Positions 44,364 to 51,545 of a stretch of DNA of 64,000 nucleotides are shown one piece after another (position 1 is the stretch's first letter; each line of letters opens with the position of its first letter). Source of the stretch: Cryobacterium suzukii (GTDB lineage Bacteria; Actinomycetota; Actinomycetes; Actinomycetales; Microbacteriaceae); contig NZ_SOHJ01000013.1 in NCBI RefSeq assembly GCF_004403185.1, positions 1-64,000 on the forward strand. Reading direction: 5' to 3'. A program made the translations under genes and the position numbers. Below the pieces are notes generated by a model. That model saw only the letters and a list, made by a program, of their open reading frames with translations, was not told the DNA's origin and ran no database searches.

Positions 44364-45179
44364 CTACGTAGGAGGTCCTGCGCCTGCCGGTGGCAGGCTC
44401 CGCAGGACGATGACCTGCTGCACCAAGGTCCAAAGGTTAGAGGTGAGCAAGTAGAACAAGACGCCGAGGGGCAAGGCCACTCCGGAGACGACGAAGATGA
44501 CGGGCAGCAGATACGTCAAGATCCGCTGCTGGCGGAACAGCGGAGACGCTCTATTCTCCGGCGAAATGTACTTTTGCATGACGAGCTGTGACGCCGTCAT
44601 GAGTGCGACCATTGCCGCGGCAATCCACAAAACGGATGGCTCGAATGGCACGCCAGCCGTCATCAATGACCATTGCGCGGCGAACGAGTCGTGCAGGGCA
44701 GCGGCGCCGAAGAGCTGTGCGCTGCCGAACTGCATGGCGAGGGGCTCATTGAGCAGGCCGATGCCGACCTTCCCCTGCTGGGCGTCGTAGAGCACGGAGA
44801 ATAGTGCGAGGAAGATTGGTGCTTGAAGCATGAGCGGGAGATAGACAGTCAGCGGGTTCGTTCCGGTAGCTGCGTAAAGGGCCATAATCTCGCGAGACAT
44901 GGCCTCGCGAGAGAGGGGGTCAGTCTTGCCCTTGTACCGATCTTGGATCGCTTTCAGCTGCGGCGCAATTCGCAGCATCCGCTGCCGGCCCCTTATCTGC
45001 CTCGCGACGAGAGGAATGAGAGCGGCGCGCACCACGAGTACGAGGCCGATGATCGAGATTACCCACGTGATACCGGCGGCCGGTTCGAGGCCAAAATATG
45101 AAAATAGCCAGTGCCAACCGACCAGTAGCAGCTCCACGATCCATTTCACGGGCCAGAGGATCGTGCCGATGACATCCAT
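44364..45179 (-). CDS. YidC/Oxa1 family membrane insertase (second paralogue)
   Basis: The 271-aa protein has five membrane segments of the YidC core: WIVELLLVGWHWLFSYFG, the positively charged hairpin (RQIRGRQRMLRIAPQLKAIQDRYKGK), YLPLMLQAPIFLALFSVL, and the last two near LLPVIFVVSGVALPLGVLFYLL. The conserved membrane Arg (LVVRAALIPL) is present. Start ATG 45179 rather than the open frame to 45245. It is not in the usual rpmH-rnpA-yidC context, so it is probably an accessory paralogue. Confidence 0.88.
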   Translation of the reverse strand: MDVIGTILWPVKWIVELLLVGWHWLFSYFGLEPAAGITWVISIIGLVLVVRAALIPLVARQIRGRQRMLRIAPQLKAIQDRYKGKTDPLSREAMSREIMALYAATGTNPLTVYLPLMLQAPIFLALFSVLYDAQQGKVGIGLLNEPLAMQFGSAQLFGAAALHDSFAAQWSLMTAGVPFEPSVLWIAAAMVALMTASQLVMQKYISPENRASPLFRQQRILTYLLPVIFVVSGVALPLGVLFYLLTSNLWTLVQQVIVLRSLPPAGAGPPT

Positions 45180-45366
45180 TTTGGAATCCAATCCCTTCGT
45201 GCGACGTCGTGACCAATGTAGCGGGACTTTCCCCGAAGCGGGCATCCATCGGTCGCCGCGGTGGCCTCCGCGAGGATGATGAGTTCAGCCGCTTACGGCG
45301 CGCGGTGACAGAATTGGGTGAAGGGTCGACGCAAATTTCGGTGGCCCTGCGCAGAGAAGGAAACCC

Positions 45367-46396: not shown

Positions 46397-47248
46397 TCAG
46401 AAATCGACTCTGCGGCCAAAGCTGCGTCTGGCTCGGGGGCGGGGCGAGCAAAAGGCCTCGCTGCCCAACCGCATCAGCTCGTGCGGCTGGAGCCCGGCCA
46501 TGGCGGCGAAGGCGGCGAGGGAGGCGAATCCGCCTCGCTTAGTACGTTCGGCAATGGCCGCCTTGGCCAGTGCGCGATCCATGCCGGTGAGCCGGGCGAG
46601 CGTGCGCTGGTTCGCCGTGTTCACGTCGACGAGCTCGGCCTGCGTGAGCGGTGTGGCACCGTTCACGGCGCCGGCGTTCGCCGCCGCTTCGTTTTCCGTG
46701 CGGCGCTGAGCTCGCGTGGTCCGGCGTCGCGACGGCGAGGCAGCGGCAGCAGGAGCGGAATCGTCGACGTAGTCGGACCGTAATGAGCCGCCGCTGCCGC
46801 CGACGAGCCGCTCCGCTTCCTGCGGCAACGCCGCTGCGCGTTGCGTCGACCGGGATGGCGCGTTCCTGCGAGCTTTCCCGCGGCGCGCGTTGCCGAAGAT
46901 TGTCAGTCCATTTTCCTTCCGCCCCCAGAGAAGCAGAAGCCAACCCTGGTTGATGATCAGGCCGTGCACCAGGGCCACCAGATACAGTGATCCCTGAGCG
47001 ATTTGCCCGGCGGGGTCCTCTGGGAGCGCCACGGCGACCGCGGCCACCGCATAGACTCCGGCGACGACTCCCCATGACCGGCGACGGGCAACGACGGCGA
47101 CAATTCCGAAAGCCGACCAGGACAGTGCGCCACCGCCAATTACGAGGAGCAGCATCCACGCGCTCGCGCCGAGACGCCAGCGGAGTGACGGTCCCAGCGC
47201 GGTCGCCGATTTCGGCGCGCTGCGCGTTCGACTGGAGACATTCGTCAT
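46397..47248 (-). CDS. Helix-hairpin-helix membrane protein, last gene of the ycf46-like operon
   Basis: The 283-aa protein has three hydrophobic segments (about residues 28-50, 52-78, 85-110), a charged Ala/Arg-rich linker, and a ComEA-like double helix-hairpin-helix at about 205-265 (VDVNTANQRTLARLTGMDRA, then GGFASLAAFAAMAGLQPHEL). It ends GRRVDF, almost the same as the end of the AAA+ protein in the operon (GRTVDF). It starts 7 nt after the DUF1257-like gene. The HhH may bind DNA or act as a protein-interaction module. Confidence 0.75.
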   Translation of the reverse strand: MTNVSSRTRSAPKSATALGPSLRWRLGASAWMLLLVIGGGALSWSAFGIVAVVARRRSWGVVAGVYAVAAVAVALPEDPAGQIAQGSLYLVALVHGLIINQGWLLLLWGRKENGLTIFGNARRGKARRNAPSRSTQRAAALPQEAERLVGGSGGSLRSDYVDDSAPAAAASPSRRRTTRAQRRTENEAAANAGAVNGATPLTQAELVDVNTANQRTLARLTGMDRALAKAAIAERTKRGGFASLAAFAAMAGLQPHELMRLGSEAFCSPRPRARRSFGRRVDF

Positions 47249-47255
47249 CGGTTCG

Positions 47256-47741
47256 CTAGGCCTCCGCGCGCACGTTGAGCACCATCGTCACTGTGTCGTC
47301 CGCCTCCCGGGTCTCCGAGACGAGCTCGAACCCCGAGCCTTTCGCGCGAGCACGAATCTTCTCGGCGACGGCCTGCTGCACCAGCGCGGCATATTCGGTG
47401 TCGAGTTGCTGCAAAAGTTCGGTGGCACTGACAACGGTGACGTCCCGGCCTTCCACGTGTGCCTCCCAAACCGTGTCGTCGGTGAGGGTCATGGTCAACG
47501 TGATGCCGTCGACCTCGGCGGTGACGCGGGAGCCCGCGACATCGATGGCGCTGGCGCCGAGGTTGCCGAGGGCGTCGGCGAGTAGCGTGCTGTCCTTCAT
47601 TCGGGTGCGCACCCGGATCGCGGGCCGAGATTCATCGCCGTCCTTTCCTTTCGCCGTCACGGCCGCCCCGAGAACGCCGACGCCGCTGGCTGCAGCGGCC
47701 ACGGCCAGGGCGATGGGGAGAAGGATTAAGGTGACACTCAT
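47256..47741 (-). CDS. DUF1257 (Ycf35)-like protein with N-terminal membrane anchor
   Basis: The 161-aa protein has an N-terminal hydrophobic helix (SVTLILLPIALAVAAAASGV) and then a soluble domain whose pattern fits DUF1257: IRVRTRMKDSTLLADALGNLG, TVWEAHVEG, LLQQLDTEYAALVQQAVAEK, GFELVSETREADDTVTMVLNV. Cyanobacterial Ycf35 has a similar domain without the anchor. ATG 47741 overlaps the radical-SAM stop (ATGA). The DUF1257 call is from motif pattern and neighbourhood; function unknown. Confidence 0.7.
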   Translation of the reverse strand: MSVTLILLPIALAVAAAASGVGVLGAAVTAKGKDGDESRPAIRVRTRMKDSTLLADALGNLGASAIDVAGSRVTAEVDGITLTMTLTDDTVWEAHVEGRDVTVVSATELLQQLDTEYAALVQQAVAEKIRARAKGSGFELVSETREADDTVTMVLNVRAEA

Positions 47742-48445
47742 GGGAGTCTCGCTTTCGTTCCGGGCCGGTCCTGTCGGGGACCGAGGTCGTGCAGAAGTTC
47801 GTCGAGGGCCGCGTCGTTGGCCCAGCCGTTCACGTCGACCCGGCCGTCGGGGTGGATGCGAACTTCGAGCCGGTCCAGCCCGCCTTCGCGTTCGATTTGG
47901 GCGACCTCGGCGGCGTAGACGGGCGTGAGTGCGCGGATGCCCTGGTTGGTCGACCCGAGCCACGGCCGCCCGGCATCGGGCTGGTCGCGCAGGTACGGAC
48001 CGTCGATGAGGAGGTCGGTGGCTCCCAGCAGTTGGGCGATGTCCGGGCGGTTCTTCGCCCATTGGGTGAGCAGATGCAGGGGGTAGCCGGAGAAGGTCAT
48101 TACGGTCAATCCGGAAGCGCGAAAGGCTTGGGCGATCGACCCGAGCGCGGCAGCCTGGTCGAAGGGTTCACCGCCGAGCAGGGTGATGCCCCGGGCGCCG
48201 GCATTGAGGGCATCCGTTACCAGGCGATCGGCGAGCCGCGCCGTATTTTCGACCCGCCCGCCGATCTCTGCCCAAAGCTGTGGGTTGAAGCAGCCGGGGC
48301 AATGCACGCTGCAGCCCTGCACCCACAGCGCTGAGCGCAGCCCCGGCCCCTCGGCGATCGTTGCGGCCAGAAACCTCGACCAGCGCAGGTCGGTACCCGG
48401 CCTCGCGACCGGTTCGTGAGTACCCAGCGTTGCGAGTGGGGTCAC
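47738..48445 (-). CDS. NrdG-like radical-SAM 4Fe-4S protein
   Basis: The 235-aa protein has C45-x3-C49-x2-C52 (WVQGCSVHCPGCFNPQ), the SAM-binding GGEPF motif (ITLLGGEPFDQ) and a compact barrel, as in activating enzymes of anaerobic ribonucleotide reductase. No glycyl-radical enzyme is encoded nearby, so the target is probably a protein of this operon. GTG start overlaps the DUF2997 stop by four bases (GTGA). The annotated longer frame to 48574 is not supported. Confidence 0.85.
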   Translation of the reverse strand: MTPLATLGTHEPVARPGTDLRWSRFLAATIAEGPGLRSALWVQGCSVHCPGCFNPQLWAEIGGRVENTARLADRLVTDALNAGARGITLLGGEPFDQAAALGSIAQAFRASGLTVMTFSGYPLHLLTQWAKNRPDIAQLLGATDLLIDGPYLRDQPDAGRPWLGSTNQGIRALTPVYAAEVAQIEREGGLDRLEVRIHPDGRVDVNGWANDAALDELLHDLGPRQDRPGTKARLP

Positions 48446-48654
48446 CGGATGCCGTCCCAATTCTGCGCCGTTGACTCCTGCGTCGCCGCTACCTGGCCAT
48501 AGGCATCCGTGAATGACGACGTAGTCGTCTCCGCGTCGAGCATGTTCTCGAGAATGGCGATGTAGTCGAGGCACTCGTTGCCGTAGAGACCGACGGTCTC
48601 GGCGTGCACGGTACCGTCGGGCCGCACCTGCACGATGAGCTGTTTGTCTGTCAT
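48442..48654 (-). CDS. DUF2997 family small protein
   Basis: The 70-aa protein fits DUF2997: QLIVQVRPDGTVHAETVGLY, then GNECLDYIAILENMLDAETT, then FTDAY. The conserved cysteine is C28. In cyanobacteria DUF2997 genes lie next to DUF1257 genes, and here both flank a radical-SAM gene. It starts 9 nt after the AAA+ gene stops and overlaps the radical-SAM start. A modified or carrier peptide is a plausible role (inference). Confidence 0.82.
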   Translation of the reverse strand: MTDKQLIVQVRPDGTVHAETVGLYGNECLDYIAILENMLDAETTTSSFTDAYGQVAATQESTAQNWDGIR

Positions 48655-48663
48655 GGGGTGTCC

Positions 48664-50292
48664 TTAGAAATCAACGGTGCGTCCGCCGCGGCGGCTGGAG
48701 AGTGCCGAACTACTGGTGTTGCTGGCGTCGACCAGGGCGTCTTCGTCGGGGTCGATGTCTTCGCTGCCCGTGGCTCGCACAGCGCGCACCTCGGCCCAGG
48801 CGCGAATGGTCTGCACTTCTTCCGCCTGGGTCACGGCGAGAGGGATCATGTTGATGATCGCTTCGGTGAGGTCGCGCAGGGTCGCGGGCCGGCGTTCGGC
48901 GAAGGCCTCGTAGAGAGCCACGATGACGGCCTGCTCGATCTCGGCGCCGGAATAATTCTCGCTGTCGGCGATGAGTTTTTCGACGTCGGAAGCGCCGATA
49001 GCCGCAAGCCCGTTGCCGGGGGTGGCCTTCGAAGCGAGCTGGATGGTCCAAATGGCCCGCCGCTCCACGGCCGTCGGCAGATCGACGAAGAAGATCTCGT
49101 CGAACCGGCCCTTGCGCATGAACTCCGGCGGGAGGGAGTCGATATTGTTCGCGGTGGCGACGACGAACACCGGGTGCTGCTTCTCCTGCATCCAGGTGAG
49201 GAAGTAGCCGAACACGCGCGCGGTCGTGCCGGAGTCACCGCTGCCCGTGGTGTTGGAGAAGCCCTTTTCGATCTCATCGACCCAGAGGATGCACGGGGCG
49301 ACGGCCTCGGCGGTGGCGAGCGCTGTACGCAGATTCTGCTCCGATGAACCGACGAGTCCGGAGAAGATCCGGCCGATGTCGAGCCGGAGCAGCGGCAGTC
49401 CCCACGACGCGGCCATCGCCTTGGCCGTGAGTGATTTTCCACAGCCGGGCACTCCGGTGATGAGTACCCCCTTCGGGGCCGGCAGTCCGAACTCCTCGGC
49501 TTCGGCCAGCCAGGAGCCGTCGCGACGGGACAGCCAGCGCTTCAGGTTGTTGAGACCGCCAACGGAGTCGAGGTCGAGGGCCTTCGTGACGAAGTCCAGC
49601 AGGCCGGACTTACTGACGATCTGGCGCTTCTCGTCGAGCACGACCGTGATGTCGTTCGAGGTGAGTTGGCCGTCGTCGACCATGGCCCGGGCGAACGCGT
49701 TCTCGGCCTCGGACATCGTCAGTCCGCGCGCGGCTTGCACGAGGGCTTCGAGGGTTTTCTCATCGGCCTGAACTTTGATCCGGCCGCTCCCTGAGGCGTT
49801 GTTCTCGATCATGGAGTCGAGCATCGAGCCCAGTTCGGTGGTGTTCGGCAGAGGGAACTCGAGCAGGTGGGCGAGCTTGTCGAGTTCCGGTGGGATACTT
49901 CGAACCGGAGCCGTCACGACCAGCGCTCGGGCGGCATCCGCGTGGCGCAGTTCGAGCACGGTCTCGCGCACCTTGCGGATGATGACAGGGTCGCCGGGGC
50001 GTTGCTCGGTGCCGAAGTAGGCATGCAGGTCGCAGAAGACGAAGACGGCGTTTTCGGGGATCCCGACAATGTGGTCCAGCGCCCGGGCTGGTGCGTTCGT
50101 GTTGTTGATTCCCTTGCCGTCGGGGCCGATCAGCCCGGTAGCGCTCGTCCAAGTCCACACCTCGCGGGGGCGCCGCAGCGCCTGGGCTGCGCTGGTGACC
50201 GCATCGAGGGCGCGCACTTCCTCGCTCGTCTCGATGTACAACAGCGGCAGGCGGGCCTTGAAGGCCTGATCGAGCGTCTGGGCGAAACTCAT
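48664..50292 (-). CDS. Ycf46-like AAA+ ATPase
   Basis: The 542-aa protein has an N-terminal Ycf46-type domain (about 1-210; [52 protein letters not shown]) and one AAA+ module: Walker A GVPGCGKS (280-287), Walker B ILWVDE (335-340), sensor-1 ATANN (379-383), arginine finger region RKGRFDE. The tail is acidic then ends RGGRTVDF. The cyanobacterial homologue has been linked to inorganic-carbon acclimation, as I recall; no photosynthesis exists here. Its ATG overlaps the upstream gene's stop. Confidence 0.88.
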
Positions 50293-51095
50293 GGCGTTCC
50301 TTTCGGGATGTCAGTGGATGCCGGGGGATCCTGCGCTAATTCGTCGATGTCTACCGACCAGGCGCCCCGGTTTTCGTCGGCCTCGATACTGATGTACACG
50401 GCCTCGGTCGGGTCCCAGGACAGGCGCTGGTCGACATCGCCGGACTCGATGATGGGCTGGTCCGACTGCTCTTCGACGGTTTGAACGGTCACGTAGAAGA
50501 GCCCCTCACCGTGATGTACGAAGCGTGCGCTGACCGCGGCACCGCGGTAGACCAGAAAATCGTTGCCCTTGCCGCTGGCGAAACCGTCCGTGATCTCGGC
50601 GACCTCGGCCTTGTACAGAGTGAATTCCCACGGTTCGTCGGTACGCACCCACAGTTCGAGGTCGCCGTCGGGTGGAAGCACGAGCAGTTCGGCGTCGGGA
50701 TCGTAGAGATAGCCGACACTGGTCGGGTAACCGCGGTCGTCGTCGGGTCGGCCGAGATCGTCGATGCCGGTCATATAGAGGCCAAGGTATTGTCCGGTGA
50801 TGAGACTCACGATGTAGGGGTCCCGATCGTGCTCTTCGAAGGGAATGCTGATCAGGCCGCTGCCCTCACCCGAGTACGTGGTGCCGTCCGGTTCAAAAAC
50901 GGTCGGCGCTTCGACGTCCCACGGGTTCGCCCCATCACCAAGGATCGCGAAGCCCGCGTCGCCGATCCCAACGTCGGCAAAGGTGTTCAGCGCGCCGACG
51001 AAGAGAGCCAGAGCGCCGCAGCCCCAGATCCAGACAGAGAATGAGCGGATGCGTCGGCGAGCACCGCTCGACACCGAAACATCCCTCATACTCAC
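50289..51095 (-). CDS. Membrane-anchored extracytoplasmic protein, first gene of the ycf46-like operon
   Basis: The 268-aa protein has a basic N-terminus, one membrane helix (about residues 21-42) and a long acidic exported domain with beta-strand patterns (LELWVRTDEPWEFTLYKAEV, FVHHGEGLFYVTVQTVEE). GGAGGAG 6 nt upstream supports the GTG start at 51095. Its stop overlaps the AAA+ start (ATGA). No known family is recognised; it could be the envelope partner of the ATPase. Confidence 0.7.
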   Translation of the reverse strand: MSMRDVSVSSGARRRIRSFSVWIWGCGALALFVGALNTFADVGIGDAGFAILGDGANPWDVEAPTVFEPDGTTYSGEGSGLISIPFEEHDRDPYIVSLITGQYLGLYMTGIDDLGRPDDDRGYPTSVGYLYDPDAELLVLPPDGDLELWVRTDEPWEFTLYKAEVAEITDGFASGKGNDFLVYRGAAVSARFVHHGEGLFYVTVQTVEEQSDQPIIESGDVDQRLSWDPTEAVYISIEADENRGAWSVDIDELAQDPPASTDIPKGTP

Positions 51096-51545
51096 GATGC
51101 GTCTCCTCCCACCAGTGCGCGGCGCAGCGTTCCCAGCCTACTTGGACACGTGGACCTCGATTGCGTGCAGCTTGACTCATGAAATCATCGGCGACAGCTC
51201 GGACCTGCGAAATGAAGCTGGAGTGTCGATGACGATCGAGCCCCAGCCATTCTGTTTCACGCGACGAAAGCGAAGCTGGCGGTGGGGACCTGTTGTCGCC
51301 CGACCGCGACTCGGGCTTCAAGACGAGCGAATCACGTCAGCGCGACGGCGACCCGAACGTGACGGGCAAGAAATTTGGCCAGTGTCCAAACCGTGCCAAC
51401 CGAAGGTACCGACAGTGAGATAAAAATGCCCGTCGCATAGCAGGTGCCCTATCGTGACGACAGCTTGCGCAGGGCACTGGCCTTGTGCGCGGCTTCCGCA
51501 TCCGTCTTCTCGGATTTCACAATATTTAGGGTCATCTTTTGACGC
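51096..51545. other. 450-base stretch without an intact gene
   Basis: Upstream of the ycf46-like operon and expected to hold its minus-strand promoter. I see no clear -35/-10 pair. A very short minus-strand frame (ATG near 51538; MTLNIVKSEKTDAEAAHKAS) is open but too short to support. Confidence 0.4.

Follow-up and report, generated by a model that had tools for sequence, protein, structure and literature searches.

Ycf35 and Ycf46 are old plastid genes that, to our knowledge, lack a settled function, and cyanobacterial Ycf46 has been linked to CO2 use. Here we describe relatives of both in Cryobacterium suzukii, where a window of 64,000 nucleotides (nt; positions 1 to 64,000 of contig NZ_SOHJ01000013.1) holds an operon for an AAA+ ATPase that we take to be Ycf46-like, a DUF2997 protein, a small radical S-adenosylmethionine (radical-SAM) protein, a DUF1257/Ycf35-like protein, a membrane protein with a C-terminal helix-hairpin-helix (HhH) domain, and a further membrane protein of 268 amino acids (aa). 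The first five of these genes are a conserved, recurring cassette. The ATPase and the HhH protein have a C-terminal tail in common, which suggests a machine for protein remodelling whose membrane partner docks by way of this tail. The cassette is real and previously undescribed (none of the open-access papers listed in our searches describes the five-gene system, judged by title or abstract start), and its function is unproven.

Parts of the cassette resemble described systems. AAA+ activases such as MoxR and CbbQ/NorQ combine an AAA+ ATPase with small partner proteins specific to it and act on a target, but the nearest PDB sequences to the AAA domain of the cassette are VCP-like/CDC48 ATPases, and a Pfam scan matched no von Willebrand factor A (VWA) domain in the six operon proteins. 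The HbYX tails of proteasomal ATPases are a C-terminal docking motif of the AAA ring. The tail of the cassette is likewise a C-terminal motif on an AAA ring and ends in an aromatic or hydrophobic residue, but it reads R-x-[VIL]-[DE]-[FYLIV] and recurs on another protein from the same operon. The radical-SAM protein is of the same small type, with a CX3CX2C motif, as NrdG and the pyruvate formate-lyase (PFL)-activating enzyme, and the latter is its closest PDB relative. However, it scores under the cut-off for the NrdG equivalog (TIGR02491, 89.5 against 126.1 bits), and its genome has no PF01228 partner. It belongs to the radical-SAM superfamily by PF13353 (104.2 bits against a cut-off of 22) and is under the cut-off for PF04055 (23.5 against 29.5 bits). 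A different, vWA-MoxR system is mentioned with a radical-SAM component in the available part of PMC7159879.

The cyanobacterial and plastid set of Ycf35, DUF2997, fed7, and Ycf46 is like the cassette in having relatives of its AAA, DUF1257, and DUF2997 proteins. In the available part of PMC4284462, DUF2997, DUF1257, and fed7 (a [4Fe-4S] ferredoxin) form a conserved cluster, cluster g. The same arrangement appeared when a profile of the 161-aa DUF1257-like family retrieved a cyanobacterial Ycf35-type protein (E = 3e-6) with a ferredoxin-like open reading frame (ORF) right after it. Unlike the cassette, the fed7 cluster as described in that part of the report has no radical-SAM or HhH gene. Also, by eye, the cyanobacterial DUF1257 sequences that we inspected have no N-terminal hydrophobic segment, unlike most members from the cassette. 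Losses of ycf35 and ycf46 from red algal plastids follow a similar pattern, linked to habitat (PMC5940233, available part).

Conservation of the cassette and its wider core

A sequence-only reading of this DNA had proposed a conserved unit in heterotrophs with kin among plastid and cyanobacterial families, and comparison of loci across actinobacteria and other phyla bears this out. All five core genes lie on one strand and no more than 7 kb from the AAA gene in 57 of 79 AAA loci (loci are numbered here with the prefix L), and at least four do so in 60. These 79 loci derive from the best 80 of at least 202 confirmed matches in a scan for the AAA protein across genome contigs, so they lean towards close relatives; the other families were found by iterating profiles over all ORFs of the AAA loci. 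The five-gene loci belong to Actinomycetota, Bacillota, Gastranaerophilales, and one planctomycete. Gene calling missed some short genes, and among the 91 ORFs that the DUF1257 profile matched in 70 entries, some overlap. With a stricter overlap filter, the five-gene cassette is found in 52 of the 79 loci, but this filter lost 5 of the 57 and misplaced DUF1257 in L025, L029, and L033, where the order is AAA-DUF1257-DUF2997-HhH-radical-SAM. There are about eight linear gene orders, three of which are rotations of one circular order. Distances between the members of the five families correlate for all ten pairs of families (Spearman 0.50-0.77, no phylogenetic correction).

Within Cryobacterium, the conservation of the operon exceeds chance. 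When positions 36001-62000 of the window were compared with four loci of the genus (L008, L012, L022, and L028; blastn, E ≤ 1e-10), similarity was confined to the operon (76-87% identity) and the flanks were unmatched. (The comparison lacks the downstream flank of L028, whose contig stops within the operon.) Of 13 genomes of the genus, 4 (this one among them) have the AAA gene at E ≤ 1e-60, and it is missing from all 7 further genomes of the order that were searched. Across 396 genomes of the phylum, 3 gave a DUF2997 hit, again with this one among them, and in 2 the hit was over the cut-off. An AAA match was found in 714 plasmid records; of ten regions opened from these, three carry the five-gene cassette (Rhodococcus, Arthrobacter, and Paenarthrobacter; the Rhodococcus and Arthrobacter plasmids are typed as conjugative).

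Most family assignments of the sequence-only reading stand. The DUF2997 protein passes the Pfam cut-off, and in an alignment of 37 sequences G14, G25, C28, and T49 are invariant. The DUF1257/Ycf35 assignment holds only through intermediates: PF06868 matches neither the window protein nor any other protein of its genome, but 6 of 37 aligned relatives do match it (best E = 2.3e-9). The AlphaFold model of this protein has a mean pLDDT of 81.6, with the N-terminal segment poorly predicted. For Ycf46, the AAA domain is secure, as is the similarity to cyanobacterial homologues along almost the full protein (38-47% identity), and the name itself is our presumption. Of the HhH relatives, 36/39 match HHH_3 at E ≤ 0.01.

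Three of the five genes are linked more widely. In two genomes from a cyanobacterium's phylum (L236 and L237), the AAA, DUF1257, and DUF2997 genes lie within about 3 kb, and for each of the seven AAA proteins of L222-L228, which are 45-47% identical to the window AAA, a DUF1257 hit lies nearby. In five of the ten plasmid regions, the annotation places the three genes close together (from Paenibacillus polymyxa, Geminocystis, Pseudanabaena, Planktothrix, and Candidatus Manganitrophus), and the P. polymyxa region also has a gene annotated as 4Fe-4S single cluster, radical-SAM type. Searching from DUF2997 in 398 Bacillota gave six hits, including the seed genome (L054, of the five-gene type); L132, L133, and L134 have AAA alongside, and L135 and L136 have a polypeptide that combines DUF1257-like and DUF2997 parts, and their 3-kb loci gave no hit for AAA. 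Such polypeptides (L132:1159-1692 and L135/L136:1018-1686, with the DUF1257-like part recognized by eye) suggest that DUF1257 and DUF2997 bind each other. Together, these loci, plasmids, and fused polypeptides show that AAA, DUF1257, and DUF2997 are the common core, to which radical-SAM and HhH genes seem to have been added. In 11 of the 79 loci, mostly from Myxococcota, the AAA gene stands alone; two of these genomes (L080 and L085) have a DUF1257-DUF2997 pair elsewhere, and a third (L083) has a radical-SAM relative elsewhere.

A GrpE match (L237:464-1006) adjoins the three-gene set of L237, beside an Hsp70-like fragment that has no Pfam match, and the Pseudanabaena cassette has annotated GrpE and Hsp70-family genes alongside (L244:1583-3714). 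In Limnofasciculus (L071:8379-15179), a radical-SAM gene, an AAA gene, a membrane protein whose Cys pairs resemble a Zn ribbon, and a coiled-coil-like protein (the last two by eye) form a row in which a DUF2997 domain is terminal in a 153-aa protein. Separately, on a Treponema succinifaciens plasmid (L239, 6354-8509), a radical-SAM gene and an AAA gene, whose product ends in GVRKLEM, lie inside a contractile-injection/phage-baseplate cluster.

The shared C-terminal tail

In the window, the AAA protein ends in RRGGRTVDF and the HhH protein in FGRRVDF. A regular expression for the tail matched 57/66 HhH proteins and 49/86 AAA proteins, none of the DUF2997 (0/61), radical-SAM (0/67), DUF1257 (0/73), or MEM1 (0/25) proteins, and 7/992 other proteins; these counts include L001-L007, which are mostly repeats of the window or near kin. 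(The expressions vary slightly between the separate counts for protein families, viral loci, neighbour pairing, and linked genes.) Among 39 aligned HhH proteins, whose mean column identity is 10%, Arg279 and Asp282 of the tail are two of only four invariant columns.

The tail on the ATPase goes with an HhH neighbour: of the 79 loci, 58 have both, 13 have neither, 5 have the tail only, and 3 have the HhH gene only. Four of the five tail-only loci are on contigs that are cut near the operon, and two of the three HhH-only loci end in near-variants (RGGRALTF and RGGRVLAF). Also, the neighbour most similar to the AAA end over the last seven residues is the HhH protein in 53/79 loci, and for 28 of those 53 the frequency was at most 0.02 against unlabelled genes drawn from other loci.

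The DNA pattern GGNMGNNNNNTNGAYTWYTRR, which encodes the strict form of the tail, has two matches in the 3.46-Mb genome, exactly at the ends of the AAA and HhH genes, and its reversed control likewise has two matches in this genome. In 12 other Microbacteriaceae genomes, the pattern has 21 matches and the reversed control 11. Of the 21, 12 are at the AAA end by coordinates, 8 are on the same contig, 2.2-2.5 kb onward in the direction of the operon, and the remaining one, on another contig, was assigned by inference. In four Bacillota genomes, 6 of 11 matches are elsewhere, so the DNA pattern alone is unspecific in that group.

Tails of this kind are not confined to the two proteins. An 80-nt rule links 71 other genes to five-gene operons, and 4 of these match the tail expression. 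The four include a 629-aa TPR protein in L053 and an Mrr_cat nuclease-domain protein in the operon of L042 (11053-11847), which ends in GRKLDI. On the P. polymyxa plasmid (L240:9871-11211), the AAA protein ends in YRRISH and two adjacent small membrane proteins, with no Pfam match, end in SRVIHF and KRVIRL. Finally, of the 14 AAA proteins in L222-L235, the seven with DUF1257 nearby end in QRMEF, QRLEF, or KRLEWS, which is a related shorter motif, and the seven without a DUF1257 hit nearby lack such ends. The earlier suggestion that the membrane proteins are anchors thus falls short for the HhH protein, which, having its tail in common with the ATPase, is more than an anchor.

These additional partners raise the question of defence. 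In an anti-phage or other conflict system, the tail could mark effectors (TPR, nuclease, and membrane proteins) that are arrayed around an AAA core. The operon-linked, tailed nuclease would suit such a system, as would the patchy distribution in the genus, the presence of the cassette on plasmids, and a weak similarity of the AAA domain to IetA. However, the IetA similarity is limited to the AAA domain region, and the PADLOC matches of the ATPase to TRIP13 and mad8 likewise cover only the AAA part (the radical-SAM protein matches pVip weakly, E = 0.0016). Furthermore, no concentration of defence genes was seen: 109 of the 213 listed neighbour proteins, taken from 26 loci, matched 18 PADLOC families with one protein each (E ≤ 1e-10, no control set). 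A defence role is possible, but the neighbours give it no support and we think it rather unlikely. A search for shared neighbours outside the cassette gave 156 Pfam families among the 109, of which the commonest occurred in 3 (E ≤ 1e-5).

The radical-SAM enzyme and its candidate substrates

The sequence-only reading had suggested that the radical-SAM protein may modify DUF2997, at the conserved Cys28, or the DUF1257 protein. As a peptide or protein maturase, it would act on Cys28 or nearby residues of DUF2997, or on DUF1257, with the ATPase unfolding the substrate. A small protein with invariant Gly and Cys does adjoin the radical-SAM gene. However, Cys28 is invariant in 63/63 enzyme-linked DUF2997 sequences and also in 32/32 others, and Gly14 and Gly25 are fully conserved in both sets as well, so the conservation of Cys28 seems independent of the enzyme and the data do not support modification at this residue. 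(For the 32, no radical-SAM gene was seen nearby, in most cases within flanks of about 1.5 kb; for L081, L091, and L092 the search covered the entire genome at E ≤ 1e-15.) The G-x-x-C motif is also present in 22/24 viral DUF2997 hits.

Thr20 of DUF2997 at first looked like a near-perfect mark of the enzyme, being Thr in 97% of the 63 linked sequences and Val or Ile in all 32 others. Viral and plasmid members and L071 then broke the pattern: in 13 viral DUF2997 from radical-SAM loci, position 20 is Val in 8, Ala in 2, Met in 1, and Thr in 2, and it is Val in L071, Ser in L238, and Ala in L240 (aligned by eye on G-x-x-C). We consider a maturase improbable.

A second possibility is that the enzyme is a glycyl-radical activase and that the ATPase repairs or remodels the glycyl-radical enzyme. 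Its nearest families are NrdG and the PFL activase, Gly-Gly is frequent in the AAA tail, and 4 of 13 genomes with the system encode a PF01228 protein. However, the other 9 of the 13 have no PF01228 match, the C. suzukii genome among them (the NrdD-type PF13597 was not searched), which agrees with the earlier remark that no glycyl-radical partner is nearby. A glycyl radical on the Gly-Gly of the tail itself was rejected, as L067 and L070 have the enzyme but no tail glycines. We regard the activase as very unlikely.

The Cryobacterium operon and a possible remodelling module

All six minus-strand ORFs of the operon were found where the sequence-only reading had placed them (Table 1). Three junctions are 4-nt overlaps (50289-50292, ATGA; 48442-48445, GTGA; 47738-47741, ATGA) and the other two are gaps of 9 nt (48655-48663) and 7 nt (47249-47255). 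The operon of six genes stands, but that reading is corrected as to the conserved core, which leaves out the 268-aa gene. This gene was found in 21 profile-search entries, all from Microbacteriaceae by genus name (the window and its repeats or near kin are counted), in loci of only Cryobacterium, Glaciihabitans, Mycetocola, and Microbacterium, with a tandem pair in some. At the thresholds applied, its product matched nothing in Pfam, NCBIfam, PADLOC, or PHROGs. It looks like a Microbacteriaceae add-on outside the conserved core.

Table 1. Genes and features of the C. suzukii operon (window coordinates)
Feature	Position (strand)	Observation
268-aa protein	50289..51095 (-)	One N-terminal transmembrane segment by eye, then a soluble domain; lineage-specific accessory
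AAA+ ATPase, Ycf46-like, 542 aa	48664..50292 (-)	PF00004, E 2.3e-30; phrog_8638 over residues 5-512, E 1.8e-138
DUF2997 protein, 70 aa	48442..48654 (-)	PF11211, E 1e-10; 41.7 bits, gathering cut-off 24.1
Small radical-SAM protein, NrdG/PFL-activase type, 235 aa	47738..48445 (-)	PF13353 (Fer4_12), E 9e-30
DUF1257/Ycf35-like protein, 161 aa, N-terminal hydrophobic segment	47256..47741 (-)	Indirect, via relatives
Membrane protein with C-terminal HhH domain, 283 aa	46397..47248 (-)	PF12836 (HHH_3), E 5e-11
AAA C-terminal tail, G-R-T-V-D-F-stop	48664..48684 (-)	Whole-genome pattern search
HhH-protein C-terminal tail, G-R-R-V-D-F-stop	46397..46417 (-)	Genome pattern search; Arg279 and Asp282 invariant
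Conserved cassette	46397..51145 (-)	blastn, E ≤ 1e-10, against four Cryobacterium loci

The surroundings of the operon gave little. The window has two tRNAs, at 23.2 and 28.4 kb, and these do not support a tRNA integration site for the operon. A promoter and terminator scan found one promoter-like site (0.6 expected) and eight terminator-like sites (3.6 expected, seven of the eight on the plus strand), none of which explains the operon. By eye, a putative YidC/Oxa1-type membrane insertase gene lies at 44364-45245, 1.15 kb past the operon end.

Tentatively, we propose that the cassette encodes a mobile, membrane-associated AAA+ remodelling module with DUF1257 and DUF2997 as adaptors and with tail-docked partners, which we consider quite possible. 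DUF1257 and DUF2997 would form an adaptor on the AAA hexamer, as their occurrence in one polypeptide in some bacteria suggests. The tail (arginine, any residue, hydrophobic, acidic, hydrophobic) would be a docking peptide, so that the HhH, TPR, and Mrr-type nuclease proteins could be recruited to the site of the ATPase's own tail. These partners might then be remodelled or switched via ATP hydrolysis. In what is the weakest step, the radical-SAM enzyme may chemically prime or modify a component or a small molecule. A chaperone sense of the module fits the GrpE match beside L237 and the GrpE and Hsp70 genes annotated next to the Pseudanabaena cassette.

Several observations weigh against this proposal. 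First, L046 and L065 have AAA and HhH genes, yet their draft genomes have no DUF2997 or DUF1257 (E ≤ 0.001) and no radical-SAM hit (E ≤ 1e-15), and the Treponema and Comamonas plasmid regions have AAA but no DUF1257 or DUF2997. Second, at E ≤ 0.001 no PDB fold matches the models of the DUF1257-like protein (best Flpp3, 8e-3) or DUF2997 (best E = 1.6). Third, the tail is absent from the AAA proteins of L081, L236, and L237 despite DUF1257 and DUF2997 alongside. Finally, 32 of 80 viral loci (L137-L216) have a tailed AAA protein, but only 3 (L137, L198, and L199) have a neighbour that shares the tail; these counts include near-identical contigs (e.g., L148/L150/L151).

As tailed viral AAA proteins seldom have a tail-sharing neighbour, the tail may instead work inside the ring of the ATPase itself. 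It would then serve self-assembly of the ATPase, with the HhH tail mimicking it to regulate the ATPase and without remodelling of a client. The 29 of 32 tailed viral AAA proteins without such a neighbour favour this, but the tail-bearing TPR and nuclease proteins fit recruitment better, and so do the tail-like ends of the membrane neighbours in P. polymyxa, which have no HhH domain. We regard self-assembly as unlikely. As for the viral sequences themselves, the 32 tails are R-x-L-D-L-like and another viral group is acidic, DEDDL-like. On the viral contig L198 (7830-10708), the AAA protein ends in GRTLELH and two further proteins end in PRTIEI and NRALEL.

There is also a more general scheme, which we find doubtful as a whole. 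Tails would code for recruitment, with membrane-HhH, TPR-HhH, and Mrr-type nuclease proteins docked to a ring of AAA+, DUF1257, and DUF2997, and with the radical-SAM enzyme adding a chemical step. This ancient ring would persist with a ferredoxin instead in cyanobacteria (Ycf46, Ycf35, and DUF2997), and as Ycf35 and Ycf46 in plastids.

The cassette of heterotrophs (in Cryobacterium, in Microbacterium, and on plasmids of Rhodococcus and Arthrobacter) makes partners of Ycf35 and Ycf46 testable outside photosynthesis, and the shared C-terminal tail is a direct, mutable handle on their binding partners.

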